Source: Gemmatimonadaceae bacterium
GTDB lineage: Bacteria; Gemmatimonadota; Gemmatimonadetes; Gemmatimonadales; Gemmatimonadaceae
Direction: 5' to 3'
DNA: 64,000 nt
Assembly: GCA_030647905.1 (NCBI GenBank)
Contig: JAUSJA010000026.1
Location: 372,001 to 436,000 of the forward strand
Every line of letters starts with the position of its first letter. Position 1 is the first letter of the stretch. The translations under genes and the position numbers were made by a program. Positions 28,187 to 34,084 of the stretch are shown here, one piece after another. The notes under the pieces are model-generated. The model saw only the letters and a list, made by a program, of their open reading frames with translations, made no database searches and was not told the origin of the DNA.

Positions 28187-29864
28187 ATAGGAATTTCAAT
28201 CGGGGATGTCGAAGTATCGCACGCCACGCTACGCCGCCGCAGGTGGTCCGTGCGGAGCTATTCGCCCGTCTGCCCGGCTCGCGGCGCGTCCGGTCCGCCG
28301 CGCCGCCGGGTCGCTGCCCTGGCGCAGGCCCGATTCGGGGCCGCCGCGCACGACGAACGCCCCCGCTCGTAAGCCGGCGCGCGCGGGGGGACGTTCAGGG
28401 GGCGTGGTGGGGCGCGGAGCTCGCGATCGGTCGTCGACGCGCGCCACGAGCGACTGACGCGCCGGTCGAGGGCGGACTCCGCGCGCCGGGCCGCGCCTCG
28501 GCGGCGGCACGGGTGCGGAGGTGCGTCAGGATCTGGTCGATCACCGCGGTCTGCGTGATGAACGCGACGATCCGCATGGTCCGGTGGCACGTCGGGCACG
28601 CCAGCGGGTCGACCTCGAAGATCTGTTGCAGCAACGCCGCCCACCGGTGCGTCGCCTCGGTGGGAGCGAGCCGCGGCGGGGCCACGATCGGGGTCACGAT
28701 CGGCACGGGCGCATCGGCGGGGGCGGGCTCCGCCAGGCGCCGCATGCCGCGCGGTCGATTGGCGTACCACCCGTAGTACCGCGTGGTCACCTGCCCCTTG
28801 TCGGGGATGTGGGTCAGCAGTCGCGCGAGAAACTCTAGCGGGTCGGCGGTCTCGGTGCCGGCGGTGGGTCCCTCCGACTTGTCGGAGCGGTAGGTCACGA
28901 CCTTCGCCGCGCGGTCATACGTCAGCCGCTCCAGGGCCACGGGGTTCCGTGCGCAGTACCGCGCAAGCCGGGTCGCAAACGCCCGATCATCCTCCGGGAT
29001 CCAGACGGCGGTGTGGACATGGAACCCCGAGTGCGGCCACGTGAGCATCCCCGCGGCTTGGTCCTCGTCGAAGAGCTCCAAACGCACGAACAGCCGGAGC
29101 ACGGCGCGGCGGAAGGCCTCCGTGAGACGCGCCGTGTCATGGACCGGCCACGACACGAACGTGCCGTCGGGCCGGAAGCCGCCGTCGGTGACGAGCAGGT
29201 GGAGGTGCGGATGCCAGTTGGCACGCGAGCCATGGGTCTGCAGGCACGCCACGATCCCCACCGCGATCTCCACCGCGAGATCGCGCTCGCCCGTCAGCGT
29301 GCGGATCGCGGCCGTGAGGGTGCGCGCGGCCACGCGGGCGATCTCCCCGAGGAGACGTCGGCGGTAGAGGCAGTACGCGCGGAGCCGCTTCGGGATCGTG
29401 AGGACCACTTGCCGGTGCGGCACGGGCGCGAGCAGCGTGGTGTCGAGCCATTGCTCCCAGATCGCGAGTCGCTTCGCGTGGCAGCTGGGGCAGAAGTACC
29501 GACACTTGCACGAGAAGGCGAGCAGGTACTCGTGCGTGCAGTCGTCACACCGAATGCGCGCGAAGCCGTGCTCGAGCACGCCGCAGGCGAGGAACTTGTC
29601 GGCGACCTGCCCGACCACGGGGCGCCACGGGCCGTACTCGCGCGCGAAGCGCTCGTCGTACACCGTCTGCAGGCGGTGCACATGCTCCGAAACCAACCGA
29701 AACAACGGCGACGCCTGCGGACGCCGGGGCTTGTAGACGCCGAGGGCCGCTGGCGCCTCGTGCCCCATGCGCGCTCCCAGACCGTGGAGCGCCGAGCATA
29801 CGGGCGACCGGCACGCGGGCGGTCACCATCGTATTGCGCCGCAGGCTATTCTGACGCAACGTCC
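28187..29864 (-). mobile_element. IS91-family insertion sequence, apparently complete (about 1.7 kb)
   Basis: A single transposase gene on the minus strand flanked by sequences shared with the shorter elements. The 5' side (29848-29864) matches 22195-22211, and the 3' side (28187-28240) is similar to 22520-22564. There are no terminal inverted repeats, as expected for rolling-circle IS91 elements. The region 28187-28394 downstream of the transposase is very GC-rich and non-coding. Confidence 0.85.
28395..29768 (-). CDS. IS91-family transposase (HUH, rolling-circle)
   Basis: 457 residues. The N-terminal zinc-binding cluster (CDDC, SCKCRYFCPSCHAKR) is followed by the HUH metal site HPHLHLL near residue 208 and the tyrosine motif RYYGWYANRPRG in the C-terminal half, giving the full set needed for single-strand nicking and transfer. 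A CPTCHRTM near the C-terminus follows. The start ATG 29768 lies about 95 bp inside the element end. This copy looks intact and could mobilise the short relatives in this island. Confidence 0.93.
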   Translation of the reverse strand: MGHEAPAALGVYKPRRPQASPLFRLVSEHVHRLQTVYDERFAREYGPWRPVVGQVADKFLACGVLEHGFARIRCDDCTHEYLLAFSCKCRYFCPSCHAKRLAIWEQWLDTTLLAPVPHRQVVLTIPKRLRAYCLYRRRLLGEIARVAARTLTAAIRTLTGERDLAVEIAVGIVACLQTHGSRANWHPHLHLLVTDGGFRPDGTFVSWPVHDTARLTEAFRRAVLRLFVRLELFDEDQAAGMLTWPHSGFHVHTAVWIPEDDRAFATRLARYCARNPVALERLTYDRAAKVVTYRSDKSEGPTAGTETADPLEFLARLLTHIPDKGQVTTRYYGWYANRPRGMRRLAEPAPADAPVPIVTPIVAPPRLAPTEATHRWAALLQQIFEVDPLACPTCHRTMRIVAFITQTAVIDQILTHLRTRAAAEARPGARSPPSTGASVARGARRRPIASSAPHHAP

Positions 29865-29881
29865 TGTGAACACTCGGGACG

Positions 29882-31207
29882 ATGGGTACCCCTTGCGGGC
29901 CTAACTGTGCTTGCTGCTGCCGAGCGGACCATGGATTGTCGCAGGGCGAAGTACTCGTCGGTCCGCTCGCAGCAGAAGCTGGCGTTAAGCCTCTCTATCA
30001 AAGGCTTAAAATAGGTCTCCCCCGCGTACGCGGGGATGCACCCCTCGACAGAAGTCTCGCCCGTTCGACAAGCCGAAGAACAGGACGAGATCCTTTGCTC
30101 GAGCAGGCGCGGATTCTCCTCGGCAGGATCAAACAGAAACGGCCGGAGAAAAGTCTGCTGCTGACCGGCCTGCGGGGAGTGGGCAAGACAGTCCTGCTCA
30201 ACGAGATCGAGCGGCAAGCGAGCGCTGCCGGCTACCGCACCATCGTCATCGAAGCGCATGAGAACAAGCCGCTCGGGCCACTGCTTGCCCCGTATCTGCG
30301 AAGAGTTCTGTACGACCTCGACCGTATTGCCGGCGCGGGGGACAAGGCAAAACGCGGGCTCCGTGTGCTGCGCAGTTTTCTCGGCGGCCTCAAAGTCATC
30401 TACGCGGACATCGAGGTCGGCTTGGACATCGATCCCGAGCAGGGTTCGGCCGACAGCGGGGACCTGGGAATCGATCTGCCCAACCTGTTCGTCGCTCTTG
30501 GCGAAGCCGCTGAGGAGAGGAAGAGTGCAGTGGCTGTGCTCATTGATGAGGTTCAGTATTTCACAGAGAAGGAACTCGGCGCCCTGATCATGGCGATGCA
30601 CAAGGTGCAACAGCGCCAGCTTCCCGTGGTGTTGCTGGGCGCCGGTCTGCCCATCCTTCGGGGTCTCGCCGGCGAGTCGAAGTCCTATGCCGAACGACTC
30701 TTCAGCTTCCCGGAAGTCGGCGCCTTGTCGGAGGAGGACGCAGCAAAGGCGTTGCGCGAGCCGGCTCTCGCCGCCGGCGTCGTTTTCGAGCCAGATGCAC
30801 TCAACGAAGTATTTCGGTTGACGAAAGGCTACCCCTATTTCCTACAGGAATGGGGATACCAATCGTGGAATCAGGCTCCCACCAACACCATCACTCTGGA
30901 AGTCGTTAGAAAGGCGACTCCGACAGTGATTGAAAGGCTGGACCAGAACTTCTTTCGCGTCCGCTTCGACCGGTTGACTCCCAGCGAAAAACGTTTTCTG
31001 CGAGCGGTCGCTGAGCTCGGACCGGGAGCTCACCGAACAAGTGACATTGCTGATAAGCTGGGAGTAAAAGTCACGAGCCTCGGGCCCGTTCGTGCAAAGC
31101 TGATCAAGAAGGGAATGGTGTACAGTCCAGCGCATGGCGACATGGCGTTCACTGTTCCTCTGTTCGACGAGTTCATGCGTCGGGCGATGCCAACGTTTGT
31201 CCCCTAG
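29882..31207 (+). pseudogene. AAA ATPase with winged-helix C-terminus; N-terminus replaced by the 101-bp repeat
   Basis: From about 30080 the frame encodes an ATPase: TGRDPLLEQ, Walker A GLRGVGKTVLLNE, Walker B AVLIDEVQYF, an arginine-finger region, and a C-terminal winged helix (SDIADKLGVKVTSLGPVRAKLIKKGM). It is like the Orc1/Cdc6-type 'ATP-binding protein' family found near toxin-antitoxin genes. The native N-terminus, which should precede the GRD motif, is absent. Instead the frame runs in through the 101-bp repeat, translating the CRISPR-like unit as GLPRVRGDAP, back to an ATG at 29882. The chimera is open and could be made, but I treat it as a disrupted gene. Confidence 0.72.
29980..30080 (+). 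repeat. 101-bp direct repeat, copy 2, with type I-E-like CRISPR repeat
   Basis: Identical to 15043-15143. IHF-consensus match at 29996-30008, CRISPR-like 29-mer at 30015-30043, then 37 shared bases. It lies about 115 bp from the IS91 element and forms the junction with the ATPase gene. As at copy 1, no second CRISPR repeat or cas gene follows. Confidence 0.85.
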
Positions 31208-31349: not shown

Positions 31350-31387
31350 TTGACAGTCAACGACCATGTAATTACAGTTATTACATG
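31350..31387 (+). promoter_or_regulatory. Promoter and operator of the mazEF-like pair, predicted leaderless
   Basis: TTGACA (31350-31355), a 17-bp spacer, and TACAGT (31373-31378) would place the transcription start at about 31385, the A of the mazE ATG. An inverted repeat CATGTAAT/ATTACATG (31365-31372 and 31380-31387, 7-bp spacer) overlaps the -10 box and the start codon, well placed for autorepression by the antitoxin or complex. Confidence 0.65.
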
Positions 31388-31717
31388 AAGCCCGTCGAAC
31401 TCAAGGTTGCCCGCATCGGCAATTCCCGGGGCGTCCGCATCCCCGCCGCGACTCTCGAACGCTATCGAGTCGGTACCTCATTGGTTATGGAAGAGCGGAG
31501 CGATGGAATCCTCCTCCGTCCGCCAGGTCCTGCGAATCCCAAGCTATCCTGGGAGGATACCGCGGGGGAGATGGCCGCAGAAGCCGAGAACTGGGACGCG
31601 TGGGATGCGACCGCTGGCGACGGGCTGGAGGAGACCCCTTGGGAGCCCGAACGCCCGCTTCGCGTAGCTGAGAAGAAGGCGAATTACAAAGCGCGTCGAC
31701 ATCCCCGCAAGAAGTGA
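31385..31717 (+). CDS. mazE: AbrB/MazE-type antitoxin
   Basis: 110 residues. The N-terminal swapped-hairpin DNA-binding domain has KVARIGNSRGVRIPAATLERY and the following strand DGILLRPPG. The C-terminal half is acidic then basic (WEDTAGEMAAEAENWDAWD, RPLRVAEKK), the usual toxin-binding tail though longer than in E. coli MazE. It binds and neutralises the MazF-like protein encoded next and probably represses their shared promoter. Its stop overlaps the toxin start by 4 bp (GTGA), indicating coupled translation. Confidence 0.85.
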   Translation: MKPVELKVARIGNSRGVRIPAATLERYRVGTSLVMEERSDGILLRPPGPANPKLSWEDTAGEMAAEAENWDAWDATAGDGLEETPWEPERPLRVAEKKANYKARRHPRKK

Positions 31718-32034
31718 AGCGCTATGAGGTTCGCTGGGCGTCGCTCGATCCCACGCAAGGCTCCGAGATGGCGAAGACCCGTCCAGTAGTGATCGTGAGC
31801 CTCGACGCGCTCAACGAACGCCTGCAGACCATCACCGTCTGTCCCCTCACGACGCAGCTTCATCCGGCGTGGCGCACACGCCTCGGCGTTCGCGTCGGCC
31901 GACGGCACGCCGAGATCGCGGTGGATCAGATCCGAACGATCAGCAAGGCTCGTCTCGGCAACAAGGTAGGGACACTGTCCGACGACGACGCACGAGCGCT
32001 GCGGCGACTCATCACCGAGATGTACGGGGAATAG
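31714..32034 (+). CDS. mazF: MazF/PemK-family endoribonuclease toxin
   Basis: 106 residues, the usual MazF size. KRYEVRWASLDPTQGSEMAKTRPVVIVS, then TVCPLTTQ, and the conserved DQIRTISKARL (Arg-Thr-Ile region near the active site). Family members cut single-stranded RNA at short motifs, stopping growth until neutralised. The start is GTG 31714 inside the antitoxin stop. It appears intact. Confidence 0.9.
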   Translation: MKRYEVRWASLDPTQGSEMAKTRPVVIVSLDALNERLQTITVCPLTTQLHPAWRTRLGVRVGRRHAEIAVDQIRTISKARLGNKVGTLSDDDARALRRLITEMYGE

Positions 32035-32117
32035 GTTGGGCGCTTCTCAGACCGGGCAACAGCAGCCAAGCGTCAATAGGGCGTAAAATCAAGTCACAAC
32101 GCGACTTAGGGCACACA

Positions 32118-32183
32118 GTCCGTTGTACGGCCATTCCATGTCCGTTTTACGGACTTGTTATGTCCGTTTTACGGACGTAAACT
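32118..32183 (+). promoter_or_regulatory. Three phased palindromic operators over a predicted promoter
   Basis: Palindrome GTCCGTTTTACGGAC at 32140-32154 and 32162-32176, with a degenerate copy (GTCCGTTGTACGGCC) at 32118-32132: exact 22-bp spacing, two helical turns. A possible promoter TTGTTA (32155-32160), 17 bp, TAAACT (32178-32183) is overlapped by the third site. The next gene starts at 32235. Confidence 0.7.
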
Positions 32184-32234: not shown

Positions 32235-33467
32235 ATGAAGCCCGCTGATTACCACCCCAGAGCAGCCTCGAATCGAATCGCGGAACTACTTGGCGTACTG
32301 CCTGTGGTAGTGCTGACGGGCGCCCGACAAACTGGAAAGAGCCGTCTCCTCAACTCAGAGGTGCCGCTTGCCGACCATAAAATCTTCACTCTCGACGACA
32401 TCGCGACCCGAACGGAAGCGCAGAACGATCCCACGGCGTTCGTTGCCCGCGCTCCGAAGATGGTCATCGATGAGGTTCAACGAGTTCCCGAACTACTCAT
32501 CGCCGTAAAGGCGGCAGTTGACCGGGAACAGCAGCGAACACCAGGCAGGTTTGTTCTGACCGGATCGGCCAATCTTCTTCTAATGAAGCAGGTGAGCGAG
32601 TCCCTCGCGGGGCGCGCCGCATACGTCACGCTCGAGCCGATGACGCGTCGCGAATTGCTGGGAGACGCAAGCACCGGCAGGTGGGACACCTTCTTCAATA
32701 ACCCTCAGACGGAATGGGTCGCCAAGCTCTCCGGGTCAACGGCGACAAAGCAGGATTGGCAGGCGGCAGCGCGGCGCGGTGGATTCCCGTATCCTGCGCT
32801 TCGTCTCGACACCGCAACGCGCGGCAACTGGTTCGACGGGTACATTGCGACGTACCTCGAACGAGACCTGAGAGAGCTGAGCGCGGTGGACGATCTCATC
32901 GCATTCCGAAGGGCGATGCAGGCGTTCGCTCTACGCACCGGTACTCCGGTCAACGCCTCCGCAGTCGCAGCCGAGCTCGGCCTTGTCGCGCGAACTCTAC
33001 GCAGGTGGCTCGACCTGCTGGACGTGAGCTATCAGCTTCTCCAGCTTCCGGCGTTCACGGCACGCCGGTCGACGCGCCTCAGAAAACGCCCCAAGTACTA
33101 TTGGAACGACTCAGGCCTCGCCCTTCACCTAAGTGGTGATGCGCAACCAGGCGGAGTACATCTCGAGACTCTGGTGTTCACCGATCTTCGTGCATGGGCC
33201 GCACTCGATGCGAGACGGCCTTCTCTGATGTACTGGCGCGATGAGGAAAACCGCGAAGTGGATTTCGTGATAGAACGCGACGGAAAACTGCTCGCGGTCG
33301 AAGTGAAAGCGACGACGCGTCCGACGTACGACGACTGGAAGCATCTTCGCCATTTCATTTCCGAATACAAGAAGACAGCAACAGGCGGACTGTTACTGCA
33401 CGGTGGTGACGAAACGTTTCAAGCCGCGCAGGGCATCGTCGCGGCACCGTGGTGGAAAGTGCTGTGA
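32235..33467 (+). CDS. AAA ATPase with DUF4143 domain
   Basis: 410 residues. Walker A VVLTGARQTGKSRLL near residue 27, Walker B KMVIDEVQRVP, sensor-type RFVLTGSANLLLM, and the DUF4143 C-terminal half with YLERDLRELS and the nuclease-like strand NREVDFVIERDGKLLAVEVKAT (Asp...Glu-x-Lys, as in PD-(D/E)xK folds). Such proteins are common, often isolated, and of unclear function. Start ATG 32235 with an AGGA-type RBS. Three phased operators upstream suggest dedicated repression. Intact. Confidence 0.88.
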   Translation: MKPADYHPRAASNRIAELLGVLPVVVLTGARQTGKSRLLNSEVPLADHKIFTLDDIATRTEAQNDPTAFVARAPKMVIDEVQRVPELLIAVKAAVDREQQRTPGRFVLTGSANLLLMKQVSESLAGRAAYVTLEPMTRRELLGDASTGRWDTFFNNPQTEWVAKLSGSTATKQDWQAAARRGGFPYPALRLDTATRGNWFDGYIATYLERDLRELSAVDDLIAFRRAMQAFALRTGTPVNASAVAAELGLVARTLRRWLDLLDVSYQLLQLPAFTARRSTRLRKRPKYYWNDSGLALHLSGDAQPGGVHLETLVFTDLRAWAALDARRPSLMYWRDEENREVDFVIERDGKLLAVEVKATTRPTYDDWKHLRHFISEYKKTATGGLLLHGGDETFQAAQGIVAAPWWKVL

Positions 33468-33483: not shown

Positions 33484-33668
33484 TCAGGCCGGACGTTCTC
33501 CTGCCTCGAGGCCTGCAACAAGATCCAGCAAGCCCGCAGCTTCCCAGGATTGATTTCTCTTTCCGTCAGAAAGCGGAATTAGAATTCCGGCTTCTTGTAA
33601 GTCTCGAACTGCCTGGTAAACCGAAGGCCTCGAACGACCGGTAGCAGCCGCTGCCACCGGGGCGGTGA
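33484..33668 (-). pseudogene. Fic-family protein, C-terminal fragment
   Basis: The minus strand reads AAAATGRSRPSVYQAVRDLQ, then EAGILIPLSDGKRNQSWEA and AGLLDLVAGLEAGE to a TGA at 33484-33486. This is the winged-helix tail of Fic/DOC-family AMP transferases (TGRSRP..VYQA...LVPLS..KRNRSWEA). The catalytic HPFxxGNG region is absent. Directly upstream, without a gap, sits the N-terminal part of an unrelated PLP enzyme. Confidence 0.75.
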
Positions 33669-33973
33669 TCGCCGGCGCTGAGCAACCCCATAATCACCGC
33701 ACTCACCGCCGCCATTCCTGATCCGAAGGCTTTGCACGCCTCGCCCTGCTCGAGCGCGGCGAGCTTTCTCTCCAGTACTTCTACAGTGGGATTCTGACCC
33801 CGCGTATAGACGTTGTTGCGATTCTCCTTCGCGCCGGCGGCAAGGAGAGCGTCGTAATTCGGGAACGCGAACAGGGACGTCTGTACGATCGGGGTGGCCA
33901 TCGAGTCGGCACCTGGCGCACCGGCCGGATGGTCCTCAAGGCAGATCCTGATATCATCGGGAGCGATTGCCAT
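33669..33973 (-). pseudogene. Cys/Met-metabolism PLP enzyme, N-terminal fragment
   Basis: From ATG 33973 (GGAG 8 bases upstream) about 100 residues match the start of cystathionine gamma-synthase/methionine gamma-lyase-like enzymes: TPIVQTSLFAFPNY, NNVYTRGQNPTVEVLERKLA, GEACKAFGSGMAAVSAVIMG, LSAGDH. The match stops there and the sequence passes into the Fic tail. The PLP-binding Lys is lost. It is divergent from the cysK relic at 34085, so both once formed a sulfur amino acid locus. Confidence 0.78.
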
Positions 33974-34084
33974 GCGCAAAGCTCCAAGCAACGGATGGCG
34001 GAGTCAATCCAGGAGCCACACGTCTCCCATCGGCCGGCTTCTTGAAGCAAATTCGGGGACACGACCACCACCCCCTGTCCCCCA

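Follow-up and report, generated by a model that had tools for sequence, protein, structure and literature searches.

A helix-phased palindrome array as a probable autoregulatory operator of an AAA_14/DUF4143 ATPase gene in a Gemmatimonadaceae bacterium

The window analysed here is a stretch of 64,000 nucleotides from a Gemmatimonadaceae bacterium (contig JAUSJA010000026.1, positions 372,001 to 436,000). Three genes on its + strand are at the centre of this study, namely those for a MazE-like antitoxin (31385..31717), a MazF/PemK toxin (31714..32034) and a 410-aa ATPase (32235..33467) which combines an AAA_14 domain, an internal winged helix-turn-helix (wHTH) and a DUF4143 domain and is classified by PADLOC as PDC-S01. 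The MazE-like gene adjoins no other examined orthologue of the ATPase. A second ATPase gene (29882-31207; AAA_16, with a weak nSTAND6 match) is found just ahead of mazE, and the start annotated for it probably extends into sequence that does not belong to it. An IS91-type Y2 transposase gene (28395-29768) lies on one side of the ATPase and mazEF genes and the truncated remnant of a Cys/Met PLP-enzyme gene (33566-33991) on the opposite side, and the ATPase and mazEF look to be carried in a decayed cargo region.

Between mazF and the ATPase gene, the sequence GTCCGTTTTACGGAC occurs exactly at 32140-32154 and 32162-32176, and a weaker copy, GTCCGTTGTACGGCC, differing from it by two mismatches, occurs at 32118-32132, giving start-to-start distances of 22 and 22 bp. 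Each copy contains the 6-bp inverted repeat GTCCGT/ACGGAC flanking TTT, with further, imperfect pairing outward. These copies lie within three candidate operator palindromes, to which no strand is assigned: palindrome 1, the weak one (32116..32134, centre 32125), reads CAGTCCGTT-G-TACGGCCAT, palindrome 2 (32138..32156, centre 32147) reads ATGTCCGTT-T-TACGGACTT and palindrome 3 (32160..32178, centre 32169) reads ATGTCCGTT-T-TACGGACGT, the latter two each including an exact GTCCGTTTTACGGAC. The first-pass annotation of this DNA, which had described a palindrome present twice 22 bp apart with a weaker third copy, was confirmed, as the score summed over five palindrome centres at 11-bp steps was 33 and the maximum in 3000 dinucleotide-preserving shuffles was 25. 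Its 22-bp register also held, but the true phase was found to be 11 bp between palindrome centres, with inverted half-sites in alternation. The same annotation had placed the array over a plausible promoter, and this part proved weak: a sigma-70 consensus scan of the locus returned no promoter at the scan threshold, and a weak candidate read by eye, TTGTTA-N17-TAAACT (32155..32183, + strand, 8/12), overlaps palindrome 3. The ATPase gene starts 52 bp 3' of the array. No second exact occurrence of GTCCGTNNNACGGAC was found in the 3.1 Mb genome, and this uniqueness points to local control, with no regulon.

The ATPase matched the PDLC04790 (PDC-S01) profile over residues 5-407 (E 1.3e-110), and its matches to PF13173 and PF13635 were over the cut-off. 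The family that joins AAA_14 to DUF4143 is presumably COG1373. The Walker A motif GARQTGKS (residues 29-36; 32319..32342, + strand) is nearly invariant in the family alignment (A1), and G29-K35 (Walker A), D79-E80 (Walker B), D343, E356 and K358 are all intact and nearly invariant. By its motif, the intact D343 ... E356-V-K358 (33261..33308, + strand) is assigned as a nuclease signature of the PD-(D/E)XK type. An AlphaFold2 model (mean pLDDT 94.2, 68 sequences) located the internal wHTH at residues 221-290 (32895..33104, + strand), a region with weak HTH_23/HTH_29 matches, and resolved it into helices 221-233, 241-247 and 252-264 and strands 268-271 and 287-290. Residues 252, 253 and 256 fall in the first turns of the third, or recognition, helix (residues 252-264, starting ARTLRRWLDLL; 32988..33026, + strand), which was assigned from the model together with the covariation described below. 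A sequence search of the PDB returned a sole, weak match, of RacA to the HTH. The best PDB fold matches were the archaeal ATPases SSO1545 (2FNA) and PABY2304 (2QEN), with TM-scores of 0.42-0.49 and 15-16% identity, so that the general arrangement is alike but the family is not. DUF4143 ATPases had been described in the first-pass annotation as lacking any known function or regulator. In the open-access literature on DUF4143, COG1373 and PDC-S01, no operator or regulator was found, an earlier description elsewhere being possible. The statement on function needs amending in that PADLOC lists the family as the defence candidate PDC-S01, ranked fourth in abundance among prokaryotic defence annotations and still unvalidated according to a 2026 survey (PMC12988326). 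The PDC-S01 ATPase may have a role in phage defence.

Conservation of the array was assessed upstream of 62 orthologues from the same phylum (at least 42% identity), whose upstream DNA was compared with shuffles. The statistic T counts the complementary pairs, of 18 possible, in two palindromes with centres 11 bp apart, taken as the maximum over -120 to +25 relative to the start. A phased array was detected at p<=0.05 upstream of 51 of the 62 orthologues and at p<=0.01 upstream of 40, such that the phased architecture first noticed at a single site recurs at orthologous loci. T was at least 14 for 57% of the orthologues; at 323 other gene starts of the same loci the figure was 0.6%, and in 916 control segments farther upstream about 0.2%. 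In the window itself, one among 95 gene starts (ORFs of at least 150 aa) had T of at least 14, and the start of the array gene also has T=14. The palindrome centres are exactly 11 bp apart, with no other lag showing a comparable rise. The half-site is a 9-nt inverted element, RTG-NNN-GAT, in which NNN differs by orthologue (AAT, GGT, GGC, GAC, GGA, TCC and others), and successive half-sites point in opposite directions across gaps of 1 and 3, which places two in each 22-bp unit and a centre every 11 bp. The palindromes of most other orthologues, including ATGAATGAT-T-ATCATTCAT, GTGGGTGAT-T-ATCACCCAC, GTGGTGGAT-A-ATCCACCAC and ATGGACGAT-T-ATCGTCCAA, have the same build, and ATGTCCGTT-T-TACGGACTT of the window conforms to the same frame. 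By eye, GTCCG half-sites repeating every 22 bp are retained in the closest relative of the window protein (59% identity). In the window clade, 25 of 45 strong arrays have their main palindrome centred at -13, a position from which the next half-site takes in the start codon. Together, these recurrences support the proposal of a helix-phased, multi-site operator for a dimer-type regulator ahead of the DUF4143 ATPase gene.

The array extends beyond the phylum, with 34 of 100 loci from Bacteroidota, Planctomycetota and Actinomycetota reaching p<=0.05 and T of at least 14 in 24% (control 0.5%), and arrays are also present on Thermus and Azotobacter plasmids. About 18% of the close orthologues showed no significant array, some of these lying at contig ends or having doubtful starts, and among 47 members of more distant DUF4143 clades 10 had a significant array. 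Phased arrays are characteristic of the clade to which the window protein belongs and of its neighbours, and do not extend to DUF4143 proteins as a whole. One of the more distant DUF4143 clades (L105, L112 and L128 with their relatives) instead has one perfect palindrome of 19 bp, TTTGCATTTCAAATGCAAA, upstream, with no 11-bp phasing. The first-pass annotation had also suggested searching for the palindrome upstream of other DUF4143 genes, and the outcome depends on what is sought: the architecture recurs with a lineage-specific core triplet but the exact sequence does not, and a search for that sequence would have failed since it is absent before other DUF4143 genes. Scanning about 85,000 genomes for a pair of TCCGTNNNACGGA copies returned 17 loci, mainly Streptomyces hairpins and unrelated repeats; none of the loci inspected was a DUF4143 promoter, the presence of DUF4143 genes having been checked for a few of these genomes only, and this result is consistent with a lineage-specific core. 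In the reverse direction, the exact AAT form TGAATGATNATCATTCA was found at 23 sites across 395 genomes and its reversed-sequence control at none; 18 of the 23 directly precede an AAA_14/DUF4143 ATPase gene, one is next to what looks like an ATPase remnant, and the other four are isolated or within coding sequence. Four or five AAT arrays lack a detectable intact ATPase. Exact AAT-type palindromes of this kind, mostly with flanking half-sites, were seen in phylum genomes at L250, ahead of an etfB-like ORF, at L251, with a Uma2-like ORF nearby, and at L270 and L271, beside asnB; such palindromes may mark positions from which ATPase genes have been lost, or may serve a second target gene.

The sequence of the core offers a means of identifying the regulator. 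Covariation of the variable triplet with each alignment column, overall identity being controlled, was measured across 31 representatives of less than 70% identity. Of 368 columns, residue 253 scored highest (partial r 0.60), followed by residue 252 (0.58), both above the 99% permutation maximum of 0.46, with residue 256 third and below that threshold. The result for 252 and 253 was unchanged when the window and its nearest relative were removed or when representatives of less than 60% identity were used, and the test was also rerun without L030, the locus whose operator had been added by hand. The permutation ignores the tree, the safeguard being that the same tree underlies all other columns, none of which rises. 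With the non-AAT representatives alone, no column passed the permutation threshold. Sliding 15-residue segments gave a modest peak at 252-266 and competing peaks at 122 and 392, the single columns being much sharper, and in an independent distant clade columns 251, 253 and 252 ranked second, twelfth and seventeenth of 373, high ranks that are suggestive but not significant in this small sample. The correspondence between helix key and triplet is close: QP..H accompanies AAT in 32/34 cases, PT..Q GGT in 5/5, PT..F GAC in 4/4, RQ..S GGC in 3/3, TS..S GGA in 3/3 and AR..R TCC in 2/2. In comparisons between proteins sharing less than 50% identity, 62% of triplet bases were predicted from the helix residues, compared with 30% from the nearest whole protein and a base rate of 29%; the columns were chosen on the same data, with a random-column control (0/300 equalled this prediction) and the predicted recognition-helix position as safeguards. 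In an actinobacterial branch whose identity to the window protein is 38%, residues 252-253 are A-K and the triplet is TCG; the window protein has A-R with TCC. Outside the fitted set, the pTT27 plasmid of the laboratory strain T. thermophilus HB27 encodes a close homologue (L272:2516-3736, 47%) with helix QP..H and an AAT operator, whose array overlaps the ATG start codon. Operator specificity is thus very probably set by the recognition helix of the ATPase, and the covariation of the triplet with residues 252 and 253 makes the ATPase itself the most likely regulator. The dimeric regulator proposed in the first-pass annotation fits these data, and its candidate, the internal wHTH of the ATPase, was reached by covariation, with no pull-down needed.

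We consider it probable (about 0.8) that the array is a cooperative cis operator bound by the ATPase product of the downstream gene, most likely repressing that gene. Features expected of an autoregulated ATPase are present, in that a wHTH lies within the ATPase and multiple phased inverted repeats lie at its own promoter or start; a recognition helix that sets specificity is indicated by covariation only. On the strength of these sequence comparisons, direct binding of the operator by the ATPase appears highly probable. The ATPase gene would presumably be repressed, activation being the alternative; repression is favoured by the array's overlap with the start codon in most relatives, and by analogy with type Ia ParA. 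Each 19-bp palindrome would be occupied by an ATPase dimer through its two wHTHs, and adjacent dimers may stack every 22 bp along one helix face, such that the array would act as a cooperative switch, most likely for negative autoregulation. Repression could keep the level of a potentially toxic ATPase-nuclease low, and release might follow a change in nucleotide or oligomeric state or the drawing of the protein to other DNA.

An unlikely alternative is that the ATPase binds the array for DNA transactions, the array being an iteron-like origin, a partition site, a recombination end or a nuclease target. The 22-bp phased repeats do resemble plasmid and phage iterons, repeats similar to GTCCGTNNAACGGAC occur in two phage replication-type genes, some of them 22 bp apart, and the protein retains its PD-(D/E)XK-type motif, but the position is that of an operator, the main palindromes at -13 overlapping the start-codon region, and there is a single array at a chromosomal locus with no adjoining replication gene. 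The phage repeats came from a search of a viral collection which gave three loci, in two of which the repeats are inside replication-type genes; they were treated as convergence on iterons. In these two (L023:7000-7098 and L024:8573-8642), in-frame palindromes like GTCCGTNNAACGGAC are spaced 22, 33 or 40 bp, those of L024 coding SPxNG-like repeats, resembling iterons within an initiator gene. It is very improbable that the array is the operator of a separate host regulator or of a neighbouring antitoxin such as MazE, with the ATPase merely the regulated gene. MazE antitoxins are DNA-binding autorepressors, and mazEF lies directly upstream of the array. Defence genes are also known to be placed under separate repressors, as with BrxR (PMC9122601) and RptR (PMC12255303). 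A separate regulator would not, however, explain operator cores that covary with the recognition helix of the ATPase, no mazE homologue is found near any other of the 211 loci (one distant mazF only), and the array lies 3' of mazF, not ahead of mazE, on which grounds a MazE operator was rejected. Chance palindromes or an intrinsic mazF terminator are a remote possibility, for although a terminator scan picked out a weak stem followed by a T-rich tail at 32140-32154, there are three copies in 22-bp register, 0/3000 shuffles reach their score, which refutes a chance origin, and the architecture recurs before orthologues with differing upstream genes.

Autoregulation by the ATPase has a precedent in type Ia ParA of the F and P1 plasmids, where three dimers bind overlapping inverted repeats cooperatively and the operon is autoregulated (PMC8465637). 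Both are ATPases with a wHTH of their own and several phased inverted repeats over the promoter, and the autoregulation proposed here and the variation of specificity between relatives would also be shared. Type Ia ParA differs in its deviant Walker ParA fold, N-terminal wHTH and ParB partner, whereas the window ATPase has an AAA+ fold, an internal wHTH and a C-terminal nuclease-type domain, and is encoded by a single gene with palindrome centres every 11 bp. Membership of the ParA family proper was rejected, the protein being AAA_14 with AAA+ ATPases as its best folds and no ParB-type gene being present among the adjacent ORFs examined. In the BrxR/CapW WYL repressors (PMC9122601), a wHTH dimer on inverted repeats likewise controls a defence gene, but the regulator is a separate gene with a WYL ligand domain, whereas here the effector itself would carry the reader. 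RptR represses a defence island by binding three direct repeats (PMC12255303); the two systems share three repeated palindromic sites ahead of a defence gene or operon, but RptR is a small dedicated repressor with a 6-bp TAGCTA core and is not an ATPase. Autoregulation by a Walker ATPase is therefore known from type Ia ParA, and the predicted AAA_14/DUF4143 version is most likely new.

Where a genome holds two scored members of the clade, their cores differ in 5 of 6 cases (GAC/AAT in G051, GGA/GAC in G269, GGA/GCA in G302, GGT/AAT in G127 and AAT/GGT in G060), the exception being G391 with identical GGC/GGC cores. This looks like insulation between co-resident copies, part of which follows from their divergence. 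More tentatively, the array could be a private address of the ATPase-nuclease. Its specificity would then have diversified in the manner of orthogonal restriction or toxin-antitoxin systems, which would keep copies in one genome from cross-talk, and its occupancy would set both expression and a switch from repressor to active oligomer. If this were true, one of the most common uncharacterised defence candidates would be sensor, regulator and effector in one self-contained chain.

The idea that the site provides a handle on the DUF4143 family was borne out, since a predicted binding site, the helix expected to read it and a decipherable specificity code together give a direct experimental entry to PDC-S01. 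The three-site DNA is also a candidate natural cooperative DNA ligand for structural work, and phased arrays may allow wrongly called start codons to be corrected and may aid specificity prediction for thousands of homologues.

Two further sets of sites were observed. A 904-bp piece of Segatella copri DNA, with no ATPase on it, carries TTCCGTGATACGGAA-type palindromes about 21 bp apart (L006:665-745), in a genome with about 20 DUF4143 genes. Several DUF4143 genes on plasmids (L272-L278) resemble the window copy in having IS elements and Fic or toxin-antitoxin genes as neighbours. The HB27 DUF4143 gene TT_P0211, which is likely to be the pTT27 copy analysed here, was reported to be 6.6-fold up when a plasmid was present with TtAgo (PMC4406477).
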